A stretch of DNA of 64,000 nucleotides from Microcoleus sp. FACHB-831 (GTDB taxonomy: Bacteria; Cyanobacteriota; Cyanobacteriia; Cyanobacteriales; FACHB-T130). Under the pieces are notes generated by a model. The model was not told the DNA's origin, did not search any database, and saw only the letters and a program-made list of their open reading frames with translations. The position numbers and the translations under genes are program-made. Positions 15,595 through 29,917 of the stretch are shown in pieces. The stretch lies in NCBI RefSeq assembly GCF_014695585.1, contig NZ_JACJON010000028.1, positions 1-64,000 of the forward strand, in the 5' to 3' direction. Within the stretch, counting starts at the first letter, position 1, and the number at the start of each line of letters is the position of its first letter.

Positions 15595-16857
15595 ATGACT
15601 ATTACCAAAGAAAGAACGCTAGCCGATAAAGTCCGTGCAGACTTCCCAATTTTGCACCAGGAAGTCAACGGCAAACCCCTAGTTTATTTGGATAATGCCG
15701 CAACATCTCAAAAACCTCTAGCGGTATTAAACAGCATTCGGGATTATTACGAAAAGTATAATTCCAACGTACATAGAGGAGTTCATACTCTCAGCGCCAA
15801 AGCTACAGATGCTTACGAAGGTGCGAGGGATAAAATTGCTGCTTTTGTGAATGCAGCTTCGCGCCAAGAAATTATTTATACTCGAAATGCCAGCGAAGCG
15901 ATTAACTTAGTCGCCTACAGTTGGGGCATGAACCATTTGCAGCGGGGTGAGGAAATAATCCTCTCTGTAATGGAACACCACAGCAACTTAATTCCCTGGC
16001 AGTTTGTGGCGCAAAAAACTGGCGCGGTGCTGAAGTTTGTTGAACTTACACCAGACGGAGCTTTTGATTTAGAACAATTTAAGACTCTGATTTCAGATAA
16101 AACAAAACTGGTTAGTACGGTTCACGTTTCTAATACTTTGGGATGTATTAATCCAGTTAAAGAAATTTGCGCGATCGCTCACCACTACGGTGCTAAAGTC
16201 TTAATAGACGCTTGCCAAAGTGCGCCCCACATGACGTTAGATGTGCAAGCGATGGACTGCGATTGGCTAGTAGCTTCTAGCCACAAAATGTGCGGTCCGA
16301 CGGGGATTGGCTTCCTTTATGGTAAGTTAGATTTGCTGCGGTCGATGCCTCCATTTTTGGGCGGTGGCGAAATGATTGCCGATGTGTTTTTAGATCGTGC
16401 AACCTATGCCGATTTGCCCCATAAATTTGAAGCGGGAACGCCATCAATTGGGGAAGCGATCGCCCTCGGTGCAGCAGTAGATTACCTAACAGCAATTGGC
16501 ATGGACAAAATCCACGCCTACGAAGCCGAATTAACAGGCCATCTGTGGGAACAATTGCAGCAAATTCCTGAAATCAAACTCTACGGGCCACAACCTGATA
16601 GTAATGGCGAAGGTAGAGCCGCATTAGCGGCTTTTACTGCTGGGGATGTCCACCCTCACGACTTGTCTACAATTTTAGACCAATCTGGAATTGCCATCCG
16701 CGCCGGACATCACTGCACTCAACCTTTACACCGTTATTTAAAAGCTCAATCTACTGCAAGAGCGAGTTTGTATTTCTACAATACCCGCGAAGAAATTGAT
16801 GTCTTCATCGCCACTTTGAAAGAAGCCATCGAATTCTTTGGCGGTATCTTTGGTTAA
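15595..16857 (+). CDS. sufS: SufS cysteine desulfurase
   Basis: Group II PLP-dependent cysteine desulfurase that supplies sulfur to SufBCD. The 420-residue product has the PLP lysine in [10 protein letters not shown] (Lys231) and the persulfide Cys in [10 protein letters not shown] (Cys374). NAATSQKP and [15 protein letters not shown] are family hallmarks. The start is ATG 15595. It is the fourth gene of the suf operon, 89 bp after sufD. No SufE or SufU sulfur acceptor lies nearby. Its 3' end and downstream hairpin are partly duplicated at 17584-17749. Confidence 0.98.
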
Positions 16858-16864
16858 TAAGTAG

Positions 16865-16881
16865 GGTGGGCAATGCCCACC
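16865..16881. repeat. GGTGGGC-AAT-GCCCACC hairpin repeat, copy 2
   Basis: A perfect 7-bp stem with a 3-nt AAT loop, located 7 bases after the sufS stop codon. It may end or stabilise the suf mRNA. It matches copies at 481-499 and 17735-17749. Confidence 0.7.
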
Positions 16882-16920
16882 TTACCCATACAAAATATTA
16901 AAAATTGAGCAAATTGTATA

Positions 16921-17553
16921 ATGATTACCACCTCAACTCCAGCCGAACAGAGAACCGTGCTAGATAATATTAGCTGGGAAACTTTTGAAGCTTTGCTGAA
17001 AGATACAGGGGAGGATAGAAAATCTCGATTTGCTTACGATAATGGCACTTTAGAAATTATGTCTCCCCTCTACGAACATGAAAATCCTAAGATTCAGTTC
17101 GATCGTTTCATATTCGCATTAGCTGAAGAACTAGAAATTGAGATTAAAAGTGCTGGTTCTATGACTCTGAAGCGACGAGCAGCAAATAGAGGAATAGAAC
17201 CAGATAATTGCTACTATATCCAAAACGAACCAGCAGTCAGAAGCAGGCAAGAACTCGATTTAGCAACCGATCCGCCGCCTGACTTAGCAATTGAAATCGA
17301 CATTACCAGCAGTTCTGTTAATAAATTTGGGATTTATTCAGCGCTAAATGTACCGGAAATTTGGAGATATAACGGGCGAATTTTGAGATTTTATCAGTTG
17401 GTAGAACTGCAATATGTTGAGTGCGATTTAAGCTGTGCATTTCCCCTAGTATCGGTAAGTGAAATGAGCGGATTTATTGAGCAAAGTAAAACCATCGGGG
17501 AAATTGCTTTGCTGAAATCATTCCGAGCTTGGGTGAGGGATAAGATAGCATAG
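16921..17553 (+). CDS. Uma2 family (DUF820) putative endonuclease
   Basis: A 210-residue member of the Uma2/DUF820 family, a PD-(D/E)XK-like nuclease group greatly expanded in cyanobacteria. Visible features are the N-terminal TWETFEALL-like helix, NGTLEIMSP with EHE (about 43-57), the central GIEPDNCYYI (about 95-104), and the core PPDLAIEIDITSSS (about 119-132), then YSALNVPEIWRY. The second acidic residue and the usual Lys of the E-x-K motif appear as EID here, so activity is uncertain. It stands between sufS and a fragment copied from the end of sufS. The start is ATG 16921. Biological role is unknown. Confidence 0.88.
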   Translation: MITTSTPAEQRTVLDNISWETFEALLKDTGEDRKSRFAYDNGTLEIMSPLYEHENPKIQFDRFIFALAEELEIEIKSAGSMTLKRRAANRGIEPDNCYYIQNEPAVRSRQELDLATDPPPDLAIEIDITSSSVNKFGIYSALNVPEIWRYNGRILRFYQLVELQYVECDLSCAFPLVSVSEMSGFIEQSKTIGEIALLKSFRAWVRDKIA

Positions 17554-17583
17554 ATTGTTGGCGATTTGACCAGACACATTTCC

Positions 17584-17691
17584 ACGCAATTTTTACACTG
17601 TTACTTGAAGGCTCAGTCTGCGGCACAGGCCAGTTTGTATTTCTACAATACGCGGTTAGAAATTGATACGTTCATCGCGTCTTTGAAGTAA
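17584..17691 (+). pseudogene. Remnant of the sufS 3' end
   Basis: The frame from 17584 reads TQFLHCYLKAQSAAQASLYF and on to YNTRLEIDTFIASLK before TAA 17689. It closely matches the SufS C-terminus ([35 protein letters not shown]). Similarity continues past the premature stop into the former coding end and the GTGGGC hairpin (17735-17749), just as after real sufS. The N-terminal 90% is absent. It therefore arose by duplication of the 3' end and flank, followed by decay, or by insertion of the Uma2 segment within a duplicated end. Confidence 0.85.
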
Positions 17692-17734
17692 GCTATCCGA
17701 GTTTTTTTGCGGGCTTTTTGGTTGATTTGGTGGC

Positions 17735-17749
17735 GTGGGCAATGCCCAC
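17735..17749. repeat. GTGGGC-AAT-GCCCAC hairpin repeat, copy 3
   Basis: A perfect 6-bp stem with an AAT loop that ends the sufS-derived remnant. Its position relative to the remnant mirrors that of copy 2 relative to intact sufS, which supports one duplicated block. Confidence 0.65.
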
Positions 17750-17877
17750 TCTACTCACCGTCTTGCAAACGTGGTGTTTAGTTTAATTTGCCCTACCTGC
17801 TTACAATAAGGCGTTTTAGGCTACGAAACGTAAATAGAATTTGCAGGCTGTATATTTGTATAAATTTTGGAGGTTTT

Positions 17878-18885
17878 ATGGCAGTCATTATTAGTATCTT
17901 TAATAACAAAGGTGGAGTAGGTAAAACTACTTATATGTTTCACATAGCGCACCTTCTTGAGCGTTCTGGTAAGACTGTACTAATGGTTGATTGTGATAGC
18001 CAATGCAATCTAACTGCTTATGCTATGCCTGAGAGCGCTATCGAACGAGCGTGGAGTGAGCGTGGAAATAGTATTTGGCGGGCAATTGAGCAAGTTTATC
18101 GAGGGATTGGAGACGTTCGCCAACGAAGGCCATCCCAAATCAACCCAACAGACTATCCAAAACTTTACCTTATCCCTGGTGATTTACTTCTGAGTAACTA
18201 CGAAGACAAATTAGGTGATACATGGAACAGTGCAAGAGGTGGCAGTGAACCTGATTTACGAGTGCAATCAGCTATCTATCGGTACATAAATTGGGCGGCT
18301 GAACTTATTAAGGCCGATATTGTTATGGTTGATCTCGGACCTAACCTCGGAGCGCTAAATCGCGCTGTACTTGGGGCTAGTGATTATTTCATAGTTCCGA
18401 TTGCGCCTGACCTATTCTCGATTCGAGGTACAGAAAACCTTGGCTCCAAGCTTGAGGCATGGCGCCAAGGATGGGAGCAATGCAATAATGCCTGGAACGA
18501 CAAAACTTTAGACCTGCCGCATGGTAGTCCTACATTTCTAGGCTATGTGATGCAACAGCATAATATCCGCAACGATTCAGAAGAAGGAATGACTAAGGGT
18601 TGGCAGATATTCGGCAATCGCATTGAGTCGGCTATTCAACAGAATATAGTGGACTGCTTGGAACGTTTTGAACAAGTGTACCATTGGGATGATAACACCT
18701 TTAATTTAGGCAAAATCCCTAATCTGCACAGTTTAATTCCGTACTCGTTAGAAGCCAAAAAGCCAGTGTTTGATTGTACAAGAAAAGATGGTCTTAATGG
18801 GGCACACATCAGTAGAGCTAGAGACTCAGTTGCTTATTTTGACCCCATAGCACAAAGACTTATTACCGTGATTAATACTCACTAA
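17878..18885 (+). CDS. ParA family ATPase, orphan
   Basis: A 335-residue deviant-Walker ATPase. It has Walker A FNNKGGVGKTT (about 8-18), Walker A' VDCDSQCN (about 41-48), and a switch segment MVDLGPNLGALNRAVL (about 153-168) that replaces the common DxPP with DLGP. The family covers plasmid and chromosome partition and positioning of large complexes. No parB or centromere-like iterons are nearby, so the cargo is unknown. The start is ATG 17878 with GGAGG four bases upstream; the open frame to 17788 is untranslated leader. Base use is similar to neighbours. Possible origin is a plasmid or integrated element, but no other mobile genes are present. Confidence 0.85.
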   Translation: MAVIISIFNNKGGVGKTTYMFHIAHLLERSGKTVLMVDCDSQCNLTAYAMPESAIERAWSERGNSIWRAIEQVYRGIGDVRQRRPSQINPTDYPKLYLIPGDLLLSNYEDKLGDTWNSARGGSEPDLRVQSAIYRYINWAAELIKADIVMVDLGPNLGALNRAVLGASDYFIVPIAPDLFSIRGTENLGSKLEAWRQGWEQCNNAWNDKTLDLPHGSPTFLGYVMQQHNIRNDSEEGMTKGWQIFGNRIESAIQQNIVDCLERFEQVYHWDDNTFNLGKIPNLHSLIPYSLEAKKPVFDCTRKDGLNGAHISRARDSVAYFDPIAQRLITVINTH

Positions 18886-19139: not shown

Positions 19140-20144
19140 ATGACCAACCTTAGATTGAGGATTGCTTGCAGCTTGTTGTTTACTATATTTGTCGCGTCTC
19201 CTAGCGTCGGCGAAAATCAGTCGCCCTACTTCCGGCGCAACCAAATAGCAACAACTGACCAAGCACAAAAAACAATGGACAACAACCTGCAAGCTATCCT
19301 CGATGACGATGCAAAGCTAGAAAAGCTAGCTTCTGGCTTCCAGTTTACAGAAGGGCCACTGTGGAACCCTGACGGATTCCTACTCTTCAGCGATATCGCT
19401 GGAGATACTATCTATAAATTCACCTCAAACAAAAAAGCTGAAGTATTTCGCCGCCCTTCTAAGAAGGCTAATGGCAATACTCTAGATCGGCAAGGACGGC
19501 TGCTTACTGCTCAACACGACGATCGCCGCGTCACGCGCCTGGAAAATGACGGCAAATTAGTCACGTTAATTGAACGATATGAGGGCAAACGGCTCAACAG
19601 CCCAAACGATCTTGTAGTTAAGTCAGACGACAGCATCTACTTCACCGACCCACCCTACGGTATTAGCAGCCAGCAAGAGGAATTGGGCTTTTATGGTGTC
19701 TATCGACTGGATAAAGAGGGTAAGCTGACTTTGTTGGTTAAAGACTTCGTGCGCCCCAATGGAATTGCTTTCTCGCCAGACGAGAAAAAACTTTATGTTG
19801 ATGATTCGGACCAAAGCCACATCCGCGTTTTCGACGTACAGCCGGATGGTACTTTGGCGAACGGGCGCGTCTTTGCCGAACTAAAAGACCCCAGCAAACA
19901 AGGTCGCCCAGATGGTATGAAGGTAGACTTGCAGGGTAATGTCTACAGCACTGGACCGGGGGGCGTGTGGATCTTTTCACCCTCTGGCGATTTTCTGGGG
20001 GCGATCGCCGTACCAGAGACTACCACTAACCTGGCTTGGGGCGACAGCGACTACAAAACGCTCTACATCACTGCTGGCAACAGCCTCTACAGCATCCGCC
20101 TCAAAGTAGCGGGGGTGCGTCCTGGAACAACGGGGAGCAACTAA
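19140..20144 (+). CDS. Secreted SMP-30/gluconolactonase/LRE family protein
   Basis: A 334-residue protein with an N-terminal signal peptide (about 1-24, hydrophobic LLFTIFVAS) and a six-bladed beta-propeller. Metal-site residues of the family are visible: Glu71 in FTEGPLW, Asn156 in NSPNDLVV, and an acidic residue in LYVDDSD (about 219-224), with RPDGMKVD (about 256-263) forming the last site. Members hydrolyse sugar lactones or related esters using a divalent metal. The signal peptide places it in the periplasm or outside. The start is ATG 19140. It is transcribed alone and is convergent with the next gene, so the substrate cannot be inferred from context. Confidence 0.87.
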   Translation: MTNLRLRIACSLLFTIFVASPSVGENQSPYFRRNQIATTDQAQKTMDNNLQAILDDDAKLEKLASGFQFTEGPLWNPDGFLLFSDIAGDTIYKFTSNKKAEVFRRPSKKANGNTLDRQGRLLTAQHDDRRVTRLENDGKLVTLIERYEGKRLNSPNDLVVKSDDSIYFTDPPYGISSQQEELGFYGVYRLDKEGKLTLLVKDFVRPNGIAFSPDEKKLYVDDSDQSHIRVFDVQPDGTLANGRVFAELKDPSKQGRPDGMKVDLQGNVYSTGPGGVWIFSPSGDFLGAIAVPETTTNLAWGDSDYKTLYITAGNSLYSIRLKVAGVRPGTTGSN

Positions 20145-20171: not shown

Positions 20172-20474
20172 TTAATTATCAGGCCCAGATACTATGCGCG
20201 GCTCTCCATTCTGGGCGGTAACATTTTCATAAACGCCGCGATCGCGCTTCACTAACTTGCTAAATCCCATGCTCTTGTAATCGTTGTCTGATGTGGGAAC
20301 CATCAGTCTTGGCACGCTTAACATCCGCTTCACGGGAGCATCAACAGGAGTGCTGCCCAAATCGCGTTTTGCTAAGTTGCACAACTCACCCCAAGTAGTC
20401 ACTTGCTGGTTCATGCCGTGCATAACTTCAACCTGCTCGTTGTTGCTAGGACAGAAATAATCGTACAAGGGCAT
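20172..20474 (-). CDS. Degenerate FmdB-like zinc-ribbon protein
   Basis: A 100-residue protein starting MPLYDYFCPSNNEQVEVMHG, which matches the opening of FmdB-type zinc-ribbon regulators (MP-Y-Y-C-x-x-C). The second Cys of the first knuckle is missing (CPSNN), and only one more Cys (about 32, GELCNLAKRDLG) remains instead of a CxxC pair. The KRMLSVPRL motif also follows the family pattern. Metal binding is therefore doubtful. It may be a cyanobacterial subfamily that has lost the ribbon. The start is ATG 20474. It is convergent with the SMP-30 gene, with 27 bp between stop codons. Confidence 0.7.
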   Translation of the reverse strand: MPLYDYFCPSNNEQVEVMHGMNQQVTTWGELCNLAKRDLGSTPVDAPVKRMLSVPRLMVPTSDNDYKSMGFSKLVKRDRGVYENVTAQNGEPRIVSGPDN

Positions 20475-20759: not shown

Positions 20760-21233
20760 ATGATTAGATCTTGGATGGTAATTGGGGGCGTAACTTTATT
20801 AGTCGCCCTAGCTAGTAACTTCATAACACCTAATGATGTCAAATGGTTTAACCGGCTGCAAAAACCAAAGTGGTTAACCTTTATACCCGCTATCCCTCTC
20901 ATCTGGACAACCGTTTTTATTTGCGGTGCTTGGTCAGCTTACATTGTCTGGGAACAAAGCCAAGGAAGCCAGAGAAAGTGGTGGATTATGGGCTTTTACC
21001 TGCTTTTGGAGGTGGTTACAGTTGCCTATAACCCTCTGATGTTGAGGCTCCGCAGTCTTAAAATTGGCACTATCGTCGGCGGAACGGGAGCCATTTTAAG
21101 CATACTTCTGGCACTGGCTGTGTGGCAAGTTTCAGGCTGGGCGTCTTTATTGCTATTACCTTATATCATTTGGAGTCCAATTGGCACTTATACCACTTGG
21201 GCGATAATGCGCCTTAATCCTGATGATGCTTAA
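20760..21233 (+). CDS. TspO/MBR family tryptophan-rich sensory protein
   Basis: A 157-residue five-helix membrane protein of the TspO/translocator family. Family landmarks are KWFNRLQKPKWL (about 28-39), PAIPLIWTTVFICGAWSAY (about 43-61) and a Trp-rich middle. TspO proteins bind porphyrins and bilins and are linked to tetrapyrrole and stress responses; in cyanobacteria they lie in membranes. The start is ATG 20760; a TTG at 20730 would add ten residues but has no support. It stands alone, convergent with the last gene of the polysaccharide unit. Confidence 0.87.
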   Translation: MIRSWMVIGGVTLLVALASNFITPNDVKWFNRLQKPKWLTFIPAIPLIWTTVFICGAWSAYIVWEQSQGSQRKWWIMGFYLLLEVVTVAYNPLMLRLRSLKIGTIVGGTGAILSILLALAVWQVSGWASLLLLPYIIWSPIGTYTTWAIMRLNPDDA

Positions 21234-28753: not shown

Positions 28754-29917
28754 TTACGAAAGCAGGCTTTTATACAATGCTTCATAGTGTGCCACAACAG
28801 AGCCTAAAGAAAAGTATTCGATGATTCTTGCCCGTGCCTGTTTTCCTAGCATTTCTCTATCCATTGCTCCCCGGTCGATTAAATCTTTCCAAGCATGGGC
28901 TAGTGCTTGAGGATCTCGTGCCGGTACAACTCGCCCTGTATCACCAACAATCCAGGCTGAGTCTCCCACATCTGTGACGACACAAGGTACGCCGCAGGAC
29001 ATAGCTTCACCAATTACATTAGGAAAAGCCTCGCCATAACAAGACGACGATGAAGCTATATCCAAAGCCGCTGTCAGGCGAGGCATATCATCGCGTTCTC
29101 CTAGCAAGTGAATTTGCTCTGTAATCCCCAATGTTTCGATAACATCCTGTAGGGCTGTATTCTCTCGACTTATTGCCGTACCTGCAAGAACAAAGTGTAT
29201 ATCTGGGCTAGTTTGCAATAGGATTGCAGCGGCTTGCAAAAAATTAGCATGGTCTTTCTGGGGGTGATACCGTCCCATCAAACCAATGATAAATTCATTA
29301 TCGGTAATCCCTAGTTCAGTTCGCAAGCTACTTCTAGCTGCTGTTGAGGGGGCAAATAAATCTGTATCAAAGCCATTAGGAATTATTTTAGTTTTGTCAG
29401 CTTTATAGCCAAGCTCTTCATGGTGGATTGCGCTAGTTTTAGAGTTATAAAGAATTTGTGCGGGATAATTAGAGAGCTTAGCTAAGAATTTAATGACAGC
29501 TATTGTACCTGCTTTTTCAGAGTAAAGTGAATTCAGAGAGTGGCGAATATTCCAGATTACAGGTACGGGTTTAGTAGCAGTAATAGTAGCTAGTTGTCCT
29601 GCTAAATTCCCGTGATACATCCAGCCTTGGATTAAGTCAGGTTTGAGTTGTCTTACCGTGCGAACTAAGCGCCAGGTAGAGGATAATGTTGGTACTCCTG
29701 GTTTCATACCAATGGTGTAAACGGGGATGCTAAGATCTGAGATGCGATCGCCCAACGTTCCTTTACACTTCAAAGAAACTACAACCGGATCAAACTGCTT
29801 TCTATCCAGGCGGGATAACACTTTGTAAAGCATCATTTCAGCCCCGCCAAGCGAAAGACCCGTGATGATAAAAACAATAGATATTTTTTGTCCTGAATTT
29901 ACAGCCACATCAACCAT
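28754..29917 (-). CDS. Glycosyltransferase family 4 protein
   Basis: A 387-residue GT-B enzyme. The N-terminal motif is ITGLSLGGAEMMLYKVL (about 17-33). The donor site holds LMGRYHPQKDHANFL (about 210) and EAFPNVIGEAMSCGVPCV with the EX7E pair (about 300). It closely resembles the GT at 31202-32344 (both end in DVGDSAWIVGDTG-type text), so the two arose by duplication. The start ATG 29917 overlaps the last 8 bases of the polymerase gene. It adds one sugar of the repeat unit at the cytoplasmic face. Confidence 0.88.
   Translation of the reverse strand: MVDVAVNSGQKISIVFIITGLSLGGAEMMLYKVLSRLDRKQFDPVVVSLKCKGTLGDRISDLSIPVYTIGMKPGVPTLSSTWRLVRTVRQLKPDLIQGWMYHGNLAGQLATITATKPVPVIWNIRHSLNSLYSEKAGTIAVIKFLAKLSNYPAQILYNSKTSAIHHEELGYKADKTKIIPNGFDTDLFAPSTAARSSLRTELGITDNEFIIGLMGRYHPQKDHANFLQAAAILLQTSPDIHFVLAGTAISRENTALQDVIETLGITEQIHLLGERDDMPRLTAALDIASSSSCYGEAFPNVIGEAMSCGVPCVVTDVGDSAWIVGDTGRVVPARDPQALAHAWKDLIDRGAMDREMLGKQARARIIEYFSLGSVVAHYEALYKSLLS

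Follow-up and report, generated by a model that had tools for sequence, protein, structure and literature searches.

A decayed second sufS 3' end behind a Uma2-family gene in Microcoleus sp. FACHB-831, a probable scar of recombination between diverged sufS regions

The sufS locus and its second 3' end

The window analyzed here is a stretch of 64,000 nucleotides from the genome of the cyanobacterium Microcoleus sp. FACHB-831, and it contains a sufB-C-D-S run in which sufS is the last gene. The end of sufS occurs twice in this region, once in the intact gene and once as a dead copy behind a Uma2-family gene. The features at the locus are as follows.

15595-16857, + strand: sufS, an intact cysteine desulfurase gene of 420 aa (open reading frame; PF00266, E 1e-146)
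16693-16857, + strand: the last 54 codons of sufS and its stop, the intact version of the part that is present twice (repeat, local alignment and profile)
16866-16880, no strand: GTGGGCAATGCCCAC hairpin 3' of sufS, a member of a dispersed family of 51 copies
16921-17553, + strand: intact Uma2-family gene of 210 aa (PF05685, E 2.6e-21)
17553-17559, no strand: junction between the end of Uma2 and the second tail (from the sequences that follow Uma2 and the start of the profile match)
17559-17721, + strand: second sufS 3' end of about 54 codons, dead (frameshift, TAA, Cys codon lost)
17735-17749, no strand: second GTGGGCAATGCCCAC hairpin, with the register that a sufS end would have (alignment)
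17878-18885, + strand: orphan gene for a ParA-like ATPase behind the second tail (PF13614)
19140-20144, + strand: SMP-30/gluconolactonase-like gene (PF08450)
20172-20474, - strand: FmdB-like zinc-ribbon gene (Pfam match below its cut-off)
20760-21233, + strand: TspO/MBR gene, also present at a greater distance behind sufS in 22 loci, of which two are the same contig

The sufS gene of the window encodes a full-length class-V aminotransferase and retains the cysteine of the HHCTQ motif, which we take to be the equivalent of C364 of E. coli. It is about 90% identical to the sufS genes of four genomes of the same family. A mosaic scan along its length revealed no clear breakpoint; in all segments scanned, either the top match was a member of the family or a family member scored only a few points below it.

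An earlier, sequence-only reading of this DNA had proposed that a decayed copy of the last 35-45 codons of sufS follows the Uma2 gene. Alignment and a profile search both bear this out, and the copy proved to be somewhat longer, at about 54 codons. Positions 16703-16839 and 17570-17706 form a direct repeat that can be aligned without gaps over 137 nt at 74% identity, and local alignment extends the match to 16703-16888 and 17570-17757 with two 1-nt gaps. A DNA profile of sufS tails, searched against downstream sequence from 97 sufS loci, matched 17559-17721 (E = 3.7e-25), and a search of the whole genome with the sufS protein returned the same place (E = 6.2e-12). A further genome-wide search gave no third copy of the tail. 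Given the agreement of the repeat with the profile and protein matches, the similarity lies far above chance. The second tail begins about 6 nt past the stop codon of Uma2, and similarity to the Uma2 end of the same-family genome G001 seems, by eye, to reach about 17555. The tail contains an in-frame TAA (17689-17691) and a 1-nt insertion at about 17697, and the cysteine codon of the HHCTQ motif (16714 in the intact gene) has become a serine codon.

The hairpin had been read as part of the same copy. A second GTGGGCAATGCCCAC is indeed present in the fitting register, but the element occurs in 51 exact copies in the genome (the pattern read backwards in none), so that the second hairpin by itself is no proof of duplication. 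In 12 of the 97 loci a slightly relaxed form, GTGGGC...GCCCAC, follows the sufS stop at a distance of no more than 10 nt, and the register of the second hairpin thus fits an inherited sufS end. In the local alignment, the similarity between the two tail copies stops about 8 nt beyond the hairpin.

The Uma2 gene and its linkage to sufS

The gene between the two sufS ends is intact and, as had been read from the sequence, belongs to the Uma2 family, scoring 76.3 bits against PF05685 where the Pfam cut-off is 27. Uma2 proteins are presumably PD-(D/E)XK nucleases, a putative assignment, and no solved structure matched the window protein by sequence at E<=0.01. To place the gene in context we used the sufS loci that are informative for their downstream neighbors, meaning those with at least 2.7 kb of downstream sequence or with a match (87 of 94 distinct loci; L112, L178 and L148 had been dropped from the 97 as duplicates). 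Of these 87 loci, 28, the window included, carry the same Uma2 lineage behind sufS, in the orientation of sufS and at a distance of up to 3 kb; in two of the 28 (L156 and L185) it is broken or partial. Two genomes of the window's family, G001 and G004, carry Uma2 behind sufS with no tail found after it; G003 and G005 have no Uma2 behind sufS, and in G002 the contig with sufS is not long enough to tell. Two tandem copies of the sufS-type Uma2 gene lie behind sufS in the Nostoc loci L164, L172, L177 and L187.

A search of 40 relatives placed the closest Uma2 genes, at 66-79% identity, in eight genomes. Seven of the eight have the gene on the sufS contig, about 2 kb or less downstream, and in the other (G006) the sufS contig ends too early; the remaining Uma2 genes among the matches listed (E<=1e-60) are at most 55% identical. 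The window Uma2 also tracks the divergence of sufS. Against the G001 orthologue it shows a pS of 0.50 and a pN of 0.12, and pS between the two sufS genes is 0.55. The distance comparison used 21 of the 28, and Uma2 distances there follow those of sufS with r 0.71, a value reached in 0 of 2000 permutations; excluded were four loci with two copies, two in which Uma2 is partial or broken, and one that the sufS alignment did not contain.

Judged by these comparisons, sufS and Uma2 are an old pair of neighbors, and Uma2 is not a newly inserted mobile cassette, as the sequence-only reading had supposed. Because of the linkage in relatives and the co-divergence, the event that produced the second tail would not have newly brought Uma2 to this place, unless the gene was returned from a close relative.

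We also examined repeats that flank other Uma2 genes in the window genome. Such repeats were found at 3 of 30 genes checked (40 were found in total), the two besides the window locus being L058 (222 nt, 90%) and L080 (49 nt). Control positions in the same genome, 200 evenly spaced and overlapping ones in 20 hand-picked stretches of 20 kb, showed repeats in 10 cases, 7 of them at least 100 nt long. On these raw counts Uma2 genes are not clearly enriched for flanking repeats over the control. The L058 repeat (482-703 of the locus, G000:C64:27760-27981) recurs in direct orientation about 1.7 kb downstream (29453-29674). By eye it comprises an upstream region and first codons, and it flanks a pentapeptide-repeat-like open reading frame and a Uma2 gene on the opposite strand; 0.8 kb upstream there is a third copy, which is partial, and the rest of the genome yielded none.

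Divergence of the second tail and comparable loci

The second tail and the intact sufS end differ with a pS of 0.64 and a pN of 0.155, and pS between the window tail and the tails of other genera is 0.52-0.71. The synonymous share of the differences is 0.53, as compared with 0.30-0.40 in simulations of neutral local decay (P 0.0005-0.046 over nine settings). The share at third positions is 0.50 against 0.40-0.43 under local decay and is not significant (P 0.10-0.20). As the comparison covers 41 codons, the evidence from the synonymous share is moderate. The enrichment for synonymous differences, which does not appear by every statistic, argues with moderate strength that the tail is more than a local copy of the window sufS that has decayed, as had been assumed from the sequence. 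L129, L138, L144 and L180 were dropped from the set of loci because of a stop inside the aligned sufS. Phylogenetic placement of the tail is permissive: the AU test does not reject 49 of 177 branches, including the position as sister to the window sufS (AU 0.168). A position outside the family is slightly better than one beside the window sufS (delta lnL 3.4), and the maximum likelihood tree puts the tail beside L048 and L156 with a support of 46.

Matches to the ParA-like gene at E<=1e-40 occur in eight genomes, within the family only in the window's own, and five same-family genomes contain none at this threshold. The closest relative of the gene that was found (70-75%) lies at G020:C1:3287020-3290437 and is split, with the pieces about 2.4 kb apart. 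The SMP-30-like gene has no match in the available sequence downstream of other sufS loci, and the ParA/SMP-30 arrangement of the window was not found behind sufS in a possible donor among the sufS loci and genomes searched. The FmdB-like gene also occurs downstream of sufS in 15 loci, mostly of Microcoleus and allied cyanobacteria, and is absent (E<=1e-15) from four of the five same-family genomes; in the fifth, G002, it sits on a different contig from the 3.1-kb sufS contig, where linkage is not judgeable. A tree of TspO is poorly supported around the window. The sufS and Uma2 genes seem at home in the family. The lack of ParA-like matches at E<=1e-40 in the five same-family genomes, and the occurrence of the FmdB-like gene behind sufS mostly in loci of Microcoleus and its allies, hint weakly that the tail side may be the newcomer in the window, though either side may be the foreign one.

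Second tails of this kind are rare, and two more were found. Searching the 97 loci with the sufS-tail profile yielded one further case, L135 (genome G305), from a metagenome-assembled cyanobacterium of the Microcoleaceae. Here sufS is followed by 1.38 kb containing a broken deaminase gene and Imm1, then by a 40-codon sufS tail with an open frame, and then by Uma2. The 1.38-kb segment shares 92% identity with what immediately follows sufS in L141, and the stretch from the tail to Uma2 matches L151, in which sufS and Uma2 directly adjoin, at 78%; both parental arrangements are therefore still extant. By eye, the match between L135 and L141 stops within a few bases of the tail start, and about 2 bases are shared at the junction. 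Immediately after sufS, both loci (L135 6263-7640, L141 6723-7534) encode a MafB19-like deaminase, as an intact reading frame in L141 and a broken one in L135, together with an Imm1 immunity gene.

One more case, L228 in genome G301 of the Microcoleaceae (86% completeness, 7% contamination), emerged when 61 genomes from the family to which G037 belongs were searched, 58 of which had a match at E<=1e-11. Here sufS is followed by a fragment of Imm1 and then by a sufS tail of 48 codons, whose hairpin is imperfect; next comes a methyltransferase gene that is also found after Uma2 in L135. The synonymous share of tail differences is 0.625 in L135 (P 0.023-0.031) and 0.58 in L228 (P 0.020-0.025). 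Imm1 is present in both loci, which may therefore have some of their history in common and may not be fully independent. The tails of the three loci begin at different codons (about 366, 373 and 381), so there is no fixed crossover site. What lies between sufS and tail in these two loci, a deaminase/Imm1 pair or an Imm1 fragment, speaks together with the flanking-repeat counts against the suggestion that such duplicated gene ends reflect a general route by which Uma2 genes spread.

A sample of 291 genomes from the order, including that of the window (G000), gave 280 genomes with a match and 31 with two. None of the 30 other genomes with two matches had a second tail beside sufS; in some of them (G214, G188) the second match lies near a contig end, so that its linkage to sufS is not judgeable. 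That only the window's genome showed such a tail in this sample indicates how rare these structures are. Other irregular sufS genes were also seen. In L227 (G306:C77, 9264-10453, - strand) sufS lacks about 21 codons that include the HHCTQ region and is frameshifted, which is either a real deletion or an assembly error; the genome (8.5 Mb, Microcoleaceae) holds no other sufS tail at E<=1e-11. Several sufS genes of the Microcoleaceae (for example L180, L141, G109, G165 and G268) end early at an in-frame TAG that precedes the usual stop by a few codons, and the former last codons can still be recognized behind it; one TAG near the sufS end was recorded for 9 of 60 among the matches listed in the family of G037.

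Probable recombination between diverged sufS regions

We consider the second tail to be most probably the scar left when two sufS regions that had diverged from each other recombined, with one homologous and one illegitimate end, and assign this reading a probability of roughly two in three. One end of an incoming piece of DNA would have paired by homology with the resident region, for which sufS is the obvious anchor, and the other end would have been joined illegitimately inside the sufS 3' end. The product would be a complete sufS, then accessory DNA, then a surplus sufS tail that leads into the downstream sequence of the other parent. Such an event would be homology-facilitated illegitimate recombination (HFIR) or an equivalent one-sided event. 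A homologous anchor on one side and a non-homologous join on the other are clear in L135 from the comparison with L141 and L151; the join is also visible in the window at 17553-17559, and its parental arrangements were not found among the sufS loci searched. The synonymous excess at all three scars favors an origin of the two gene ends from different alleles. Weighing against the reading are the third-position share, the permissive placement of the window tail, the failure to find a donor arrangement or a clear mosaic breakpoint in the window sufS, the quality of the L135 and L228 genomes with their common Imm1, and the rarity of such scars. The scars in L135, L228 and the window appear to fit one type of event, and their different tail start codons are as expected of illegitimate joins and so support one-sided recombination. 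Single-crossover integration of a circularized piece would give the same product; it is probably the less likely route, because the tail is short and diverged.

A local tandem duplication of the sufS tail and Uma2, after which the extra Uma2 was lost and the extra tail decayed neutrally, would also yield a junction of the Uma2 stop with a tail, and tandem Uma2 genes do exist behind sufS in the four Nostoc loci. The third-position share does not reject this explanation, and the placement of the tail as sister to the window sufS is not rejected either. However, the synonymous share is too high in the window, L228 and L135 alike, the tail differs from the intact end at synonymous sites within the range seen between the window tail and other genera, and no second Uma2 start is visible by eye where the similarity of the copies ends past the hairpin. 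We regard such a duplication as rather unlikely. The chances are smaller again for a remnant of a complete, diverged tandem sufS whose 5' part was deleted. This would likewise leave a tail that had been under constraint before it died, and might arise by single-crossover integration of a circular piece, but no second sufS was found in the available downstream sequence of the 94 distinct loci, nor did one stand beside sufS in the 30 other double-match genomes of the 291-genome sample.

Integrative elements such as e14 at icd of E. coli restore the 3' end of their target gene, and they resemble the window in having a complete gene on one side and a spare 3' end on the other. Insertion of a Uma2 cassette that brought or duplicated the sufS end in this manner is very improbable in spite of the order sufS, Uma2, dead tail and the intact sufS, as the Uma2 lineage is a long-standing neighbor of sufS, no integrase-sized reading frame lies between sufS and the tail (of at least 50 aa there are only Uma2 on the + strand and two of 50 and 63 aa on the - strand), the junction points differ among the three scars, and L135 and L228 carry other DNA in this position. 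In contrast to e14-type elements, the sufS scars thus show no integrase, no fixed crossover point and only a tiny cargo. From the original proposal, the duplicated sufS 3' end flanking Uma2 and the working end kept by sufS both stand; Uma2 insertion as the origin is not supported.

The proposed recombination between sufS regions has its closest parallels in bacterial gene transfer. HFIR is known from laboratory events of natural transformation in Acinetobacter, Pseudomonas stutzeri and Streptococcus pneumoniae. It has also been described in E. coli conjugation (PMC3240628). These events and the sufS scars share one homologous and one illegitimate end and the addition of foreign DNA beside a conserved sequence; the former were laboratory events, whereas the scars are known from their product alone, from which we infer uptake, donor and direction. 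In type VI secretion (T6SS) clusters of Vibrio cholerae, effector-immunity modules are displaced stepwise by new ones, and one example has the 3' end of the old effector moved downstream; the authors propose an HFIR-like mechanism (PMC5361080). Both systems have a conserved upstream anchor, a new module and, in that one Vibrio example, a shifted old 3' end; they differ in that the Vibrio modules are effector-immunity pairs whose immunity genes pile up, whereas the sufS scars have a housekeeping desulfurase as anchor and Uma2 or deaminase/Imm1 genes in between. Among the papers listed by our literature searches, no title or beginning of an abstract mentions sufS-linked Uma2 genes or sufS-tail scars.

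The second sufS end is real and rare, and as a probable scar of recombination it can still be read; events of this kind are known, and among the titles and abstracts listed the location is new. A broader and more tentative view, to which we give clearly less than an even chance, is that in filamentous cyanobacteria one-sided recombination may repeatedly have used the sufS 3' end, where a conserved operon ends, as its anchor. Small accessory genes (Uma2, deaminase/Imm1 pairs and ParA-like genes) would thereby be exchanged between genera, each exchange being recorded in a sufS-tail scar. For the Uma2 family, the lineage at this locus is an old companion of sufS and not a recent arrival, and the scar leaves the general spread of Uma2 genes unexplained. 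Gene-end scars of this type provide a readable record of short accessory genes entering chromosomes without the machinery of mobile elements. Three of them at one housekeeping gene, one with both parental arrangements still extant, make a concrete cyanobacterial test case.
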